IMG/VR virus record: IMGVR_UViG_3300048925_000692 | Coordinates: 1 to 21,863 of that record | From: a virus | DNA length: 21,863 bases | Reading direction: 5' to 3' (one strand) | In this document: positions 49 to 9,819 of the stretch, one piece after another | How positions within the stretch are numbered: position 1 is the stretch's first letter | Layout: the number at the start of each line of letters is the position of its first letter | The notes under the pieces: model-generated | What the model was told of the DNA's origin: nothing | Seen by the model: the letters and a program-made list of their open reading frames with translations, nothing else | The model's database searches: none | Made by a program: the position numbers and the translations under genes

Positions 49-127
49 AGCGATCTCCTTTGTTGGCAGATTGATTATGCCGGAGGATCTCTAAATGTGA
101 ATGGCACGATTATGCGGGATACTTACA
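1..127 (-). mobile_element. IS3-family insertion sequence, one end only
   Basis: One end of an insertion sequence that continues beyond base 1. On the minus strand it opens with TGTAAGTATCCCGC, and the integrase reading frame is clean up to base 128 and stops matching exactly there. The 5'-TG start is typical of IS3-family ends. A transposase start follows about 80 bases inside, with a strong AAAGGAG ribosome binding site. The other end and any target duplication lie outside the window. Confidence 0.8.
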
Positions 128-919
128 ACCTGAACGGGAAACTGTTAGAATGGAAAACTCTAACGCACGAGCTGATATTCCTTTTTTCTTTCTCAATTCA
201 GACATGAAAGAGCTTATTTCTTCATATGCTAAAGCTGCATGATGATTTTTATCTTGGACTTTACTTGGAAGAGGGAGAAGGGGTTTAAGTGAGCCTTTCC
301 ATGCTGCCGGATTATCACCTTCAAAAAATTCTTTTGCTTTAGCATAATCAATGATGGCTTCGATACGACCACGTAAACGGCTTGCTGTTTCATTCTTTGT
401 TAACCAGATTGGTTCGAGTATCGTTAACAGATCAATTTTTGTGATAGCACTGACAGCTTTATCAGCAATGATAGGATAAGCATACGTTTCAAGAGTAGAT
501 CGCCACTGTGCTACATGCTTTTTGTTCTTTAGCTCATTGCTCTTGATTTCTATCACTGCTTCGGCGCATTCACTAAAGGTCTTTTGCTTACGTGCTTGAG
601 CTTCCTGAGCTGCTTTACGAGCATGTTTTGCTTCCAATGGATCAATACCGCTTTTGATCTGCTTACGTATCTCACGAGCTTTATCACGAGCTTCTGCTAA
701 TGAAAGTTCCTGATAAGCACCCAGCCCCATATTCAAACGACGAGGAACTGTTTTACCTGCTTTGTTGATACGGGTTCCCATAGCAAGACGTAAACACCAT
801 ACACGGGACTGTTTAACGATTCGTAAGTATAAGCCGTCTGCGCCTCCCACATAGTAGTCACCATCTGCTTTCAGTTTAGAAACAGCAAGCGCGGACAGTT
901 CTTTAGCTTTCTTTGTCAT
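110..919 (-). pseudogene. int: Prophage tyrosine integrase, truncated by the IS
   Basis: A P4-type tyrosine recombinase that would integrate and excise the prophage. The N-terminal arm-DNA-binding domain (DUF4102 type) is visible, with LSALAVSKLKADGDYYVGG, DGLYLRIV and LGAYQELSLAEARDKA, followed by the core-binding domain. The normal frame runs from ATG at 919 to base 128, about 264 codons, against roughly 400 for the family. It ends at LTVSRSG, directly after the box I catalytic Arg. The last residues CKYPA and the stop come from the IS end. The remaining catalytic residues, including the Tyr, are beyond the IS or lost, so this copy should be inactive. A TTG at 934 is a possible but poorer start. 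Confidence 0.9.
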
Positions 920-991
920 AAATAAAATATCCAATGGTGCATTGAGTGGTGCATAAAATGACAGATTTCAATCAAATATACAAGACGTTAC

Positions 992-1939: not shown

Positions 1940-2326
1940 TTATTTATTGTTTCTTGCTTTGAGCAATTCTTCGAACAACCGATTGAAATCTGCCACTTTT
2001 TCACGCAAGTCGGACAAATGTCGCTCTTTTTCAGACTCGGGAAGGGATGCGAATAGCGATAACAGCTCTTTTTCACTCTCGTTTAGCTGATTTTGCGGGG
2101 GAATGGGGTCGCTGGGGGCGCTGTTTTCGTCGCCGTAAAGAATCCATGTAGGTGAGCATTGCAGGGCCGAACTAAGGGAAAAGAGGTTCTTGCCCCCCGG
2201 TTCACTATCTCCAGTTTCCCATTGTGAAATAGTAACATGCGCGACTTTAACCAGCTTGGCTAACGCCCTCTGGGTAAGATTCAATTCTTTTCTGCGCGCT
2301 CTAATGCGCTCACCTGGCATCGTCAT
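1940..2326 (-). CDS. Prophage repressor, short form without autocleavage domain
   Basis: CI-type lysogeny repressor of 128 residues. Residues 7-60 form an XRE helix-turn-helix (RIRARRKELNLTQRALAKLV, then VTISQWETGD). The second half is a charged helical region, probably for dimerisation. There is no S24/LexA-like peptidase domain: no Ala-Gly cleavage site and no Ser/Lys dyad. RecA-stimulated self-cleavage is therefore not possible, and induction needs another route such as an antirepressor, as known for Gifsy prophages of Salmonella. The gene faces cro across three matching operators. The ATG follows a likely pRM -10 (TAGAAT, 2341-2336) by about ten bases with no ribosome binding site, so the mRNA may be leaderless like lambda cI. 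Confidence 0.85.
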   Translation of the reverse strand: MTMPGERIRARRKELNLTQRALAKLVKVAHVTISQWETGDSEPGGKNLFSLSSALQCSPTWILYGDENSAPSDPIPPQNQLNESEKELLSLFASLPESEKERHLSDLREKVADFNRLFEELLKARNNK

Positions 2327-2407: not shown

Positions 2408-2614
2408 ATGTTAACAAGAGAAGCGATCAACCATTTCGGTAGTAAGAAAAAGCTTGCTGAGGCCGCCGGTGTGAAAGCACCGACCGTATATGCATGGGGT
2501 GAGTTGGTGCCAGAAGGTAAGGCCGCTCGATTAGCGCTGATCACAGAAGGGATTTTGAAATATGACCCTGAGGCTTACAAAAATCGCAGCCATTCAACCC
2601 ATGATGCAGCTTAG
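2408..2614 (+). CDS. cro: Cro-like antirepressor of the lysogeny switch
   Basis: A 68-residue DNA-binding protein of the P22 Cro / YdaS type. MLTREAINHFGSKKKLAEAA begins the helix-turn-helix, and VKAPTVYAWGELVPEGKAAR gives the recognition helix and the characteristic W-x-x-x-V/I-P-E pattern, followed by LALITEGILKYDPEAY, all as in P22 Cro. It should bind the same operators as the repressor and shut off repressor and early transcription in lytic growth. It is the first gene of the pR transcript, with GGGAGAGG as ribosome binding site. The length is normal for the family. Confidence 0.88.
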   Translation: MLTREAINHFGSKKKLAEAAGVKAPTVYAWGELVPEGKAARLALITEGILKYDPEAYKNRSHSTHDAA

Positions 2615-5612: not shown

Positions 5613-5634
5613 AAACCGCCATCACAGGCGGTTT
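5613..5634 (+). terminator. Hairpin terminator ending the early rightward unit
   Basis: 8-bp stem AAACCGCC / GGCGGTTT with loop ATCACA; the T tract is short (GTTAACCTTTT). It separates transcription from pR from the LexA-controlled promoter that follows. Confidence 0.6.
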
Positions 5635-5711
5635 GTTAACCTTTTGGTAATAAAAGGAAATTTTGTAAATTTTCCAGAAATAGTGATCCTAAGTATTTGC
5701 ACTACGGATGA

Positions 5712-5745
5712 TTGGAGAGTATAAATACTGTTATTATATACAGTA
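5712..5745 (+). promoter_or_regulatory. LexA (SOS) box over a promoter
   Basis: TACTGTTATTATATACAGTA at 5726-5745 fits the enterobacterial LexA consensus (CTGT-N8-ACAG, here with symmetric TA flanks). It covers a likely -10 (TATATA, 5735-5740) spaced 17 bases from TTGGAG (about 5713). Transcription should be off until LexA is cleaved after DNA damage. The next start codon is 14 bases downstream of the box. Confidence 0.85.
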
Positions 5746-5759
5746 CTCTGAGGTGACAC

Positions 5760-5951
5760 GTGATTGAAATTGAGGAGGTAACAGAGCAACTCCCAGCGGA
5801 TGGACGTGTCCTTATAACGTGTAAAAACGGTGTTATCTGCAGCGTGCGCCAGGTGCACGAAAATGAACATGTGGCATCACTTAATGCTCTGATTGAAATA
5901 GCAAAAATGGCTGGTTACACGATCACTAAAAACGGGTGCGTTAAGGTATAA
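5760..5951 (+). CDS. SOS-controlled 63-aa protein, candidate antirepressor
   Basis: Starts with GTG and reads MIEIEEVTEQLPADGRVLIT; GAGGT six bases upstream is the ribosome binding site. It is a small soluble protein with a beta-rich first half (GRVLITCKNGVICSVRQV) and a helical second half (ASLNALIEIAKMAGYTI). I recognise no family. Directly seen: it is the first gene behind a near-ideal LexA box. Known: Gifsy-like prophages have repressors without an autocleavage domain, inactivated by small LexA-controlled antirepressors. Inferred: this protein may have that job here, since the repressor at 1940-2326 also lacks the domain. DinI-like modulators do not match. The identity is unproven, but that it is a gene is likely. 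Confidence 0.7.
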   Translation: MIEIEEVTEQLPADGRVLITCKNGVICSVRQVHENEHVASLNALIEIAKMAGYTITKNGCVKV

Positions 5952-5983
5952 AATGTGGGCTGGCCTGAACAACCGGTAACCAC

Positions 5984-6003
5984 TTACTGAACAATTGCTG
6001 CGT
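5984..6003. repeat. Dispersed 20-base repeat, copy B
   Basis: TTACTGAACAATTGCTGCGT, 18 of 20 identical to the copy at 1802-1821. It lies just before the DUF1367 gene, at the border of the antiterminator module. Confidence 0.6.
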
Positions 6004-6017
6004 TAACGGGGGAACCG

Positions 6018-6449
6018 ATGGCGCAGTATAGCTTTATCAAATCTACTGGCGGGGTATTAATTCCCGCTACACCCGACACACGGGCCTTTATCAACTCAAA
6101 GGTCAAACCGGGTGCTGTTTTATATGCTGATTTCAGGCAAGCGCGTAACCCGGCGTTTCACCGGAAATTCTTTGCGCTCCTTAACCTGGGCTTTGATTAC
6201 TGGCAGCCTGGCGGCGGTGCAATTTTTTCGGCCGATGAAAAGCTGCTTCGAGGTTATGTACAGCTCGTCGCACACCATGCCGGGCATGAGAAAATCCTTC
6301 TGCAATTAGCAGAGCAATATCTTCGCGAACAAGCCGGGATACGCGCCAGAAATAGCAGTCTGGTGAAATCCTTCGACGCGTTTCGGGCATTTCCCACACC
6401 GCAGGCCGCTGAAAACGCCGCCGCTCAGTTGCTGGATTACGCCGCATGA
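6018..6449 (+). CDS. DUF1367 family phage protein, shortened
   Basis: 143 residues. MAQYSFIKSTGGVLIPATPD, the phrase ARNPAFHRKFFALLNLGFDY and SLVKSFDAFRAF are hallmarks of DUF1367, a common lambdoid protein of unknown role encoded between replication genes and Q. From memory, family members are nearer 200 residues, with a segment between the SFDAFRA motif and the terminal ENAAAQL motif. Here FPTPQAAENAAAQLLDYAA follows at once, so about 50 residues appear to be missing without loss of frame. The ribosome binding site is weak (GGGGG). Its end overlaps the next gene by four bases (ATGA). Confidence 0.8.
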   Translation: MAQYSFIKSTGGVLIPATPDTRAFINSKVKPGAVLYADFRQARNPAFHRKFFALLNLGFDYWQPGGGAIFSADEKLLRGYVQLVAHHAGHEKILLQLAEQYLREQAGIRARNSSLVKSFDAFRAFPTPQAAENAAAQLLDYAA

Positions 6450-6628
6450 AAAAAATCGATCTCACCAAATACGTGTGCGGGCGCGCACTGATCGTCCGCA
6501 CTCCTGGTCTCTGTAATTTCAATCCCAGTACCGGCGCTCCGGCGCATTATCGCATCGCAGAAACCTTCGGCACGTCGAGGGGATTTTTCGCACTCAGTAA
6601 ATCTGGAGAGAAGGGGTTTTTAAAATGA
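6446..6628 (+). CDS. Hypothetical 60-aa protein before Q
   Basis: MKKIDLTKYVCGRALIVRTP begins a small basic protein with two Cys and many aromatic residues (CNFNPSTGAPAHYRIAETFG), ending SGEKGFLK. It overlaps DUF1367 by ATGA at its start and Q by ATGA at its end, so all three are translationally coupled. No family is recognised. The coupling is the main reason to believe that it is expressed. Confidence 0.65.
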   Translation: MKKIDLTKYVCGRALIVRTPGLCNFNPSTGAPAHYRIAETFGTSRGFFALSKSGEKGFLK

Positions 6629-7440
6629 AACTGGAATCATCACTCAAACATTTTAGCCCTCAGGGTATGCAGATTAGCGACAGCATAAAAGGGACTTCTC
6701 CGGATCGTCTTACTGGTACTGATGTTAAAGCTGCCATGGGTACCACCAGCACACGGGCACGCTTTGGACTTGCCGCTTTTTTGGGTAAAGCTGGCGTTAG
6801 CAAATCTGATGAGCAACTGGCGGTGCAGATGCTGGTACGGCACGCAATGGAGATTGCACCGAAGAATGTCCGAAAGGCGGCTGGCGGGCAATTCAGTCAT
6901 TGTATGTTGTTGCTGGCACAATTCGCTTTCGCGGATTACTCACGTTCGGCGGCAAGTGACGCAACCTGTTCTAGTTGCAACGGTACCGGAAAGACGACCA
7001 GGACGCAGGTTACACGTAAAGTCTCTTATCCGTGGGGAAAGGCGCCTTACTGGGCCAGCCGATCCCGCGCGGTTCATCCGTCCGACTGGGAAAAATGGAC
7101 AGAGGTAACGGAGATTTTCCCGGTCAAATGCAAAGCCTGCGAGGGCAAAGGCCTACTAAGCGCCCGATGTCGCTGTGGCGGTAAAGGCGAGATACTCGAC
7201 CGTAAGGCGACGAAAGAAAAGGGGGCTCCCGTGTTCAAAACATGCAAGCGTTGCAATGGCCATGGATTTTCGACTGTTTCTTCTGCAACGGTCCATCGCG
7301 CCATCCTGACGTATTTACCAGACCTTCATCAGTCGTCATGGTCACGCAACTGGAAGCCTTTCTTTGAAAGGCTAGTGGATACGCTTCATAAAGAAGAGAA
7401 ACATGCTGCGTCAGAATTCGAGAAGGTGACCTCTTATTGA
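6625..7440 (+). CDS. Q: Late antitermination protein Q (phage 82 type)
   Basis: 271 residues. Q binds DNA at the late promoter and modifies RNA polymerase so that it ignores terminators in the late operon. The family signature is the set of DnaJ-like zinc knuckles, Cys pairs at about 115/118 (CSSCNGTG), 169/172 (CKACEGKG), 182/184 (CRCGGKG) and 207/210 (CKRCNGHG), with a helical N-terminal half and an aromatic C-terminal region (SSWSRNWKPFFERL). Length is normal. Its expected targets, a late promoter and a terminator, follow immediately. It lies downstream of the LexA-controlled promoter with no clear terminator between. Confidence 0.88.
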   Translation: MKLESSLKHFSPQGMQISDSIKGTSPDRLTGTDVKAAMGTTSTRARFGLAAFLGKAGVSKSDEQLAVQMLVRHAMEIAPKNVRKAAGGQFSHCMLLLAQFAFADYSRSAASDATCSSCNGTGKTTRTQVTRKVSYPWGKAPYWASRSRAVHPSDWEKWTEVTEIFPVKCKACEGKGLLSARCRCGGKGEILDRKATKEKGAPVFKTCKRCNGHGFSTVSSATVHRAILTYLPDLHQSSWSRNWKPFFERLVDTLHKEEKHAASEFEKVTSY

Positions 7441-9070: not shown

Positions 9071-9330
9071 TGGGCGCCCTGGAAGCCATTATCGGCGGCA
9101 TTATCACTCTGGCCCTTCTTCTGTTTGGTGCACACCGTGTCGGAAAGAGTCAGGGTAAAGCAGAGGCAAAGGCCAACGTGCAAGAGCAGACCGCTGCCGC
9201 TGCTATCGCCGCCACTAAACGCCGGGTTGAAGTCATCAAAGAGGCCAGCGATGTACAGCAGACTGTTAACCATATGCCTGATGACGATGTTGATCGGGAG
9301 CTGCGCGACAACTGGACCCGCAAAGCTTGA
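9070..9330 (+). CDS. Rz-like inner-membrane spanin subunit
   Basis: 86 residues starting MGALEAIIGGIITLALLLFG, an N-terminal membrane anchor. A long Ala/Glu/Lys-rich coiled coil in the periplasm follows, then a C-terminal contact region (DDDVDRELRDNWTRKA). With the lipoprotein encoded in the overlapping frame it would bridge and fuse inner and outer membranes at the end of lysis. It is shorter than lambda Rz (about 150). The start is ATG at 9070, overlapping the previous stop; an upstream in-frame ATG at 9016 would lie inside the preceding gene. Confidence 0.78.
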   Translation: MGALEAIIGGIITLALLLFGAHRVGKSQGKAEAKANVQEQTAAAAIAATKRRVEVIKEASDVQQTVNHMPDDDVDRELRDNWTRKA

Positions 9331-9484
9331 CGTTATCGATACTGCTTGCGACTGGGTAAAGCCAGTCTACCTGACTTTAGAAGACATCCGGGTAATGGAC
9401 CCGAACACAAAGAAAGACATCCTGATTCATAACAATTCCTGGCGTAGTCACTGCGCTGCTGAAACAGAATTCGCACCTCACTAA
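9251..9484 (+). CDS. Rz1-like outer-membrane spanin lipoprotein
   Basis: 77 residues in the +1 frame, starting inside Rz and running 154 bases past its end. MYSRLLTICLMTMLIGSC is a lipoprotein signal with the lipid-attachment Cys18 in a LIGS-C lipobox. The mature part is short (ATTGPAKLDVIDTACDWVKP...). AAAGAGG precedes the ATG. A lipoprotein nested in a coiled-coil membrane protein gene just after an endolysin is diagnostic of Rz/Rz1. It is longer than lambda Rz1 and less Pro-rich. The frame beginning at 9125 has no support as a start. Confidence 0.8.
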   Translation: MYSRLLTICLMTMLIGSCATTGPAKLDVIDTACDWVKPVYLTLEDIRVMDPNTKKDILIHNNSWRSHCAAETEFAPH

Positions 9485-9525
9485 AAGAGATCACGGCCAG
9501 TATCATCCTGATCTAAGGAAACGTA

Positions 9526-9618
9526 ATGAAAAAATGTATTTTTGCATTCATCTGCCTTTTTTCTTTATCTGCTCACGCTGAAAAATACCTGACTTATCCT
9601 GACTCCCCGCGGGCTTAG
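9526..9618 (+). pseudogene. Secreted-protein N-terminus cut at the deletion junction
   Basis: CTAAGGAAACGT precedes ATG; the 30 residues begin MKKCIFAFICLFSLSAHAEK, a classic signal peptide with AHA as cleavage site, then YLTYPDSPRA and a stop. A mature part of about 12 residues is too short. The last codons overlap another frame that reads into the gpZ-like remnant. The likely explanation is that a small secreted gene downstream of the spanins was cut when the head genes were deleted. It could also be a genuine micro-protein. Confidence 0.5.
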
Positions 9619-9819
9619 CCCTGCAACCGAAAACTGCAACAACAAAATGAAAGCCAGCAACCGGCGCGACGCGTTTTAGTGGCGTTTCGTTGAGTTAGGT
9701 ACGTCGAGCATTCCCCCGCACCCCTTTGTGCGGCCTGCGTTTGATTCATGCAGAAAGAGGCGGCACGAACTGTTCCTGGCTGGATGAACAGAGACATTAA
9801 TGAGGGGCTATCAAAATGA
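9611..9819 (+). pseudogene. Remnant of a gpZ / HK97-gp10-like tail completion gene
   Basis: One frame reads GLSPATENC...KASNRRDAF, a TAG stop at 9677-9679, then WRFVELGTSSIPPHPFVRPA and FDS. The end of the gene is in another frame: KEAARTVPGWMNRDINEGLSK with TGA at 9817-9819. The phrases WRFVE.GTS and HPF.RPAFDS are hallmarks of HK97 gp10-like proteins, the lambda gpZ equivalents that prepare tails for joining heads. The N-terminal part is absent, there is one nonsense codon, and about one base is lost near 9745. The stop overlaps the next start (ATGA), as expected for the old operon. The gene is dead and marks the edge of a large deletion. Confidence 0.75.

Follow-up and report, generated by a model that had tools for sequence, protein, structure and literature searches.

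A small LexA-controlled gene of PHROG 340 as a probable antirepressor of a DicA-family prophage repressor

The stretch of DNA analyzed here (the window) spans the 21,863 bases of a viral record in IMG/VR. One segment of it carries, in order, a hairpin, a LexA box, a 63-aa open reading frame (ORF) with a GTG start, DUF1367, YbcO, and Q. The features of this segment are as follows.

5613-5634, plus strand: G+C-rich, terminator-like hairpin ahead of the SOS promoter, its T tract weak (from folding)
5697-5702, plus strand: weak, poor -35 element TTGCAC (from sequence)
5720-5725, plus strand: tentative -10-like TATAAA abutting the LexA box (from sequence)
5726-5745, strand not applicable: LexA (SOS) box TACTGTTATTATATACAGTA (from matrix score and homologous loci)
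5760-5951, plus strand: 63-aa candidate antirepressor gene (PHROG 340; FsoA/Rem family), from its GTG start and a profile match
5959-5977, plus strand: conserved stem-loop with an invariant TGAACA loop, between the candidate antirepressor gene and DUF1367
6018-6449, plus strand: DUF1367 gene in the irsA-homologue position, internally shortened (Pfam PF07105, E 9e-43)

The box at 5726-5745 is the sole CTGT-N8-ACAG of the window (0.23 expected). It scored 24.3 bits in a matrix scan, against 9.2 for the second-best site in the window and a top score of 14.3 in 60 first-order Markov randomizations of it; the 15 E. coli LexA sites underlying the matrix themselves score 14.0 to 26.7. These values bear out the initial annotation, which had called a near-ideal LexA site here. 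Its further claim, that the site lies over a promoter, holds in part: the -10-like hexamer is present, and GTATAAA or GTATATA ahead of the box is kept in most aligned relatives, but the promoter is weak and was missed by a consensus promoter scan of the window, for which reason the TATAAA is graded as tentative. The hairpin at 5613-5634 was not called by an automatic terminator scan. A LexA box behind a terminator-like hairpin has likewise been described for the Gifsy prophages, whose antirepressors GftA and GfoA also face non-cleavable repressors (Lemire et al. 2011; PMC3121763). As in Gifsy-type operons, the box lies outside the immunity region, 3.3 kb from the repressor/cro region.

The GTG start of the ORF stands 14 bp past the LexA box and is preceded by GAGG at 5750-5753. 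Among relatives of the ORF, dN/dS is ~0.06 to 0.4 in pairs with enough change, and this purifying selection marks the ORF as a real gene. The initial annotation had placed its product in no recognized family; in fact it is a member of PHROG 340 ("unknown function"), with a match at E 3.3e-20 over residues 2 to 57 of 63. The same profile matches Rem (E 4e-21) and the presumed FsoA (E 1e-26). Membership does not extend to PHROG 4847, the family of GftA, against which the ORF scored E 0.17. An hhalign comparison of the ORF family with GftA gave a probability of 8% and a score of 19.3, versus 14.7 at most when the columns were shuffled 40 times, so that a remote homology is plausible and the comparison suggestive, short of proof. 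The ORF matched none of the DinI profiles in Pfam, PHROGs, and NCBIfam and nothing in PADLOC. Readings of it as a DinI-like protein and as a leader peptide were both rejected on the family and selection evidence. An AlphaFold2 model of the product (pLDDT 81.5, pTM 0.50) matched nothing in the PDB from which a function could be read; a profile search of PDB sequences returned nothing significant, and a search of genome contigs gave a partial match of the kind expected by chance.

The layout of the operon is that of Gifsy-2, where a terminator-like hairpin, a LexA box, dinI, gftA with a GTG start, and DUF1367 follow one another (PMC3121763). According to Lemire et al., gftA is flanked by dinI and an irsA homologue (PMC3121763), which identifies DUF1367 as that homologue. 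The 63-aa ORF, also a small GTG-start gene directly upstream of irsA/DUF1367, is therefore the positional counterpart of gftA. The difference lies in dinI, the first gene of the Gifsy operons, which is absent from the window and its group; it is reported to be dispensable for induction (PMC3121763). One relative (L315) has an intermediate order: LexA box, dinI, PHROG 340 gene, DUF1367.

The DUF1367 product is 143 aa long in the window and in L010, versus 198 aa in L011 and L012, through an in-frame internal loss of ~55 aa, and YbcO (in the region 6018-6628 together with DUF1367) has 60 aa, versus 97 aa in relatives. Ahead of DUF1367, the stem-loop at 5959-5977, of the form GCTGG-CCTGAACAA-CCAGC, recurs in L006, L012, L001, L325, and many other loci, whether the antirepressor gene there is of PHROG 340 or gftA. 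Four of its five stem pairs change on both sides, and covariation is 0.52 versus 0.30 after shuffling (0 of 500 shuffles reached it), a count that leans towards structure because the 28 alignment rows were chosen by their TGAACA core and mostly pair. The element had no match in Rfam; possibly it acts as a regulatory RNA structure in the nin-like region. At many loci a second TGAACA copy, here CTGAACAATTGCTGCG at 5988-6004, lies past the stem-loop and shortly before the DUF1367 start.

The repressor and its surroundings comprise the following features.

1849-1862, strand not applicable: operator-like palindrome TTAGATACGTCTAA (TTAGA-N4-TCTAA), on the left side
1940-2326, minus strand: DicA-family prophage repressor of 128 aa without an autocleavage domain (HTH_3, NF007257)
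1943-2068, minus strand: residues 87-128 of the repressor, a C-terminal tail conserved among repressors with different HTH heads
2329-2342, strand not applicable: operator-like palindrome TTAGATAATTCTAA (TTAGA-N4-TCTAA)
2379-2392, strand not applicable: operator-like palindrome TTAGAAAAATCTAA (TTAGA-N4-TCTAA)
2408-2614, plus strand: Cro/DicC-like regulator (P22_Cro, profile match) adjoining the repressor

That this repressor lacks an autocleavage domain, as had been proposed at the outset, was confirmed by profile searches: it belongs to the DicA family (NF007257, 181.8 bits against a cutoff of 101, E 5e-54), carries HTH_3, and has no match to Peptidase_S24, which we used as the mark of a self-cleaving repressor. 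PADLOC returned only generic HTH matches for it. Its AlphaFold2 model (pLDDT 84.8) contains the HTH helices and two C-terminal helices, at residues 83-93 and 97-127, with a lower-confidence linker ahead of these tail helices. TTAGA-N4-TCTAA occurs three times in the window, flanking the repressor/Cro pair, and not once in 100 shuffled windows; the three palindromes are likely operators.

Relatives of the 63-aa ORF were gathered from viral contigs, a few of the counted loci being duplicate records. Among the close loci (those of the window, BUCT708, and 705R4 types), a LexA box stands ~25 bp or less from the ORF in all 54 that include upstream DNA, and DUF1367 follows 70 to 88 bp downstream in every one of them. 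No LexA box lies upstream of the gene in 82 FsoA-like or 81 Rem-like loci. The type of repressor differs as well: Peptidase_S24 was found in 2 of 51 LexA-group records versus 49 of 51 FsoA-like (left-operon) records, where, as in the tail- and P22-C2-selected sets described below, the records inside a group are related and the counts not independent. Its rarity in the LexA group indicates that LexA-driven copies pair with repressors that are not inducible by cleavage. One of the two S24 records (G043, 79 kb) also has a DicA-like, tail-bearing repressor of its own. The other (L020/G011) does break the pattern: a LexA-driven PHROG 340 gene whose product is 98% identical to the BUCT708 protein sits beside a 273-aa S24 repressor. 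This suggests that the immunity region was exchanged recently or that the gene has a role in crosstalk with other prophages. In one clade (L290-L297), the tail, PHROG 340, and DUF1367 are kept, with no recognizable LexA box within 1.2 kb. L012 has two more strong LexA boxes (20.6 and 22.5 bits, at positions 7272 and 7665) just upstream of the antirepressor box and near genes absent from the window; they possibly control additional SOS cargo.

The tail of the repressor is shared by proteins that otherwise differ. When 93 unique repressors were clustered at 45% identity, their DNA-binding heads formed six clusters; in comparisons across clusters, mean identity is 24% for the heads and 45% for the C-terminal ~40 residues, the tail being more similar than the head in 15 of 15 cluster pairs. 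The tail consensus is ELLxLFxxLPESEKERHLxELRxKVxGFNRLFEELLxxRK. A single ORF cluster (60% identity) is paired with four of the head clusters. Tail and gene co-occur in both directions. The tail was found in the same record as the LexA-driven ORF in 43 of 48 LexA-group records, the misses being four records of 16 to 28 kb and the S24 exception, and had no convincing match among 51 FsoA-like records. Conversely, records selected by the tail alone contained PHROG 340 in 46 of 50 cases, and a LexA box lay within 200 bp at 52 of the 61 tail-selected loci with the ORF in the fetched DNA. Records selected by P22 C2, a repressor with a DicA-like head and a cleavable C terminus, contained PHROG 340 in 0 of 41 cases; the search was sensitive enough, since it found the family in the tail-selected set.

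We propose from these sequence comparisons that the antirepressor targets the tail. A Mantel-type test of ORF against tail distances gave no coevolution signal (r of 0.14, or -0.28 when controlling for DUF1367), and the tail may be too conserved to show one or may be needed for dimerization alone. In the literature that we covered, which was incomplete, we found no description of this tail.

Two characterized members of PHROG 340 bear on function. Rem, of the Qin prophage of E. coli K-12, relieves repression by DicA, a repressor of the same family and with the same C-terminal tail as the one described here, and raises DicA-repressed dicBp 165-fold (PMC10448788). Rem differs from the 63-aa product in its length (83 aa, with an insertion) and in its location away from DUF1367; no LexA box was found upstream of it, and dicBp has been reported to be unresponsive to mitomycin C. 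FsoA of Fels-1 is almost certainly STM0898.2n, to judge from position and similarity: FsoA was mapped to an interval next to STM0896 (PMC3121763), STM0898.2n lies in that interval, and within Fels-1 it gives the top match to a GftA profile (E 0.014). It shares ~40% identity over 38 aa with the 63-aa ORF. Like GftA, FsoA derepresses Gifsy-2 (PMC3121763); it does not act on its own prophage. Its gene differs in being part of a left operon that a cleavable CI-type repressor controls and in having no LexA box. Fels-1 (L002) has a 24.0-bit LexA-like site at position 6826, inside the annotated repressor-gene region.

GftA shares at most a remote similarity with the ORF, and the tail of its counterpart repressor GftR matches the conserved tail weakly (E 0.011). 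GftA and GfoA form stable complexes with their repressors (PMC3121763), the GfoR-GfoA complex being A2B2. Binding of GftA to GtgR was seen by far-western blotting after denaturation (PMC3121763), which suits a short linear binding target. Tum of phage 186 and AntC of N15 are also LexA-controlled antirepressors; Tum differs in having 146 aa with a DinI-like half, and neither is among the family matches of the ORF.

The 63-aa ORF very probably encodes an SOS-controlled antirepressor that binds the DicA-family repressor, most likely through its tail, and so triggers the lytic genes. The initial annotation had favored an antirepressor, and this is still the best reading given a family that includes Rem and the presumed FsoA, the position of gftA, and non-cleavable, tail-bearing partners. 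It had also put the antirepressor forward as new, which is not supported: GftA/GfoA and DicA/Rem are direct precedents, and the family was known. In a lysogen, LexA would occupy 5726-5745 and keep the ORF off. After DNA damage, RecA-driven cleavage of LexA would free the promoter, and the 63-aa protein would be made. It would then bind the non-cleavable repressor (1940-2326), most likely at tail residues 87-128; the repressor would leave the TTAGA-N4-TCTAA operators, and the lytic genes would be switched on.

A different role for the protein would be to disarm mainly the repressors of other prophages, with induction of its own prophage incidental. The action of FsoA on Gifsy-2 is of this kind, the L020 record places a LexA-driven copy beside a cleavable repressor, and a common tail would permit cross-action. 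LexA-driven copies nevertheless share their record with a tail-bearing, non-cleavable repressor in 43 of 48 cases, whereas the FsoA group, which is of the crosstalk type, shows the opposite pattern, and we regard this role as unlikely to be the main one. It is very improbable that the ORF encodes an SOS accessory protein, such as a DinI-like RecA modulator or a lysis or toxin protein, that merely shares the LexA promoter. Gifsy operons do have dinI behind their LexA box, and the structural model of the ORF points to no particular function, but family searches revealed no DinI similarity, the protein shares its PHROG with Rem and the presumed FsoA, and a tie to tail-bearing repressors is not expected of a RecA modulator.

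The switch appears to be housed in a damaged prophage. The integrase (110-934, minus strand) has arm-binding and central domains only, its catalytic part missing. A minus-strand peptide, MRKARFTEHQIIAVIK, lies at the left end of the window; it looks like the start of an IS3-family OrfA, and an insertion sequence may interrupt the integrase. No terminase, portal, or capsid genes were seen between the lysis genes and the tail genes, which come immediately after them (9330-9816); at 444 aa, the tape measure gene is short. By its gene content the prophage looks defective, the switch intact and the particle not. That the ORF is a relic, a former antirepressor with no inducible phage left to trigger, would fit these losses and the shortened DUF1367 and YbcO, but it is scarcely credible where every part of the switch (LexA box, ORF, repressor, Cro, operators) is intact, relatives of the ORF show purifying selection, and such a circuit can function even where particles cannot be made.

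The SOS-controlled antirepressor proposed here is thus of a kind already known from Gifsy and from Rem/DicA. What this adds is that many prophages have their PHROG 340 genes directly controlled by LexA, which holds for neither FsoA nor Rem, and that head-swapped, tail-conserved repressors accompany these LexA-driven genes. A largely unannotated family of small proteins is tied to prophage induction, and the Rem/DicA pair is linked to SOS control in many phages. There is perhaps an even chance that the tail is a portable antirepressor receptor: heads would be swapped, making phages heteroimmune, and the tail kept, so that one SOS-controlled family could trip many repressors and synchronize the prophages in a cell. 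If so, the cross-induction that has been reported between heteroimmune Gifsy prophages would have a mechanism. The head-and-tail architecture of these repressors allows testable predictions of which prophages will respond to an antirepressor and could account for induction across immunity groups, an otherwise unexplained result.
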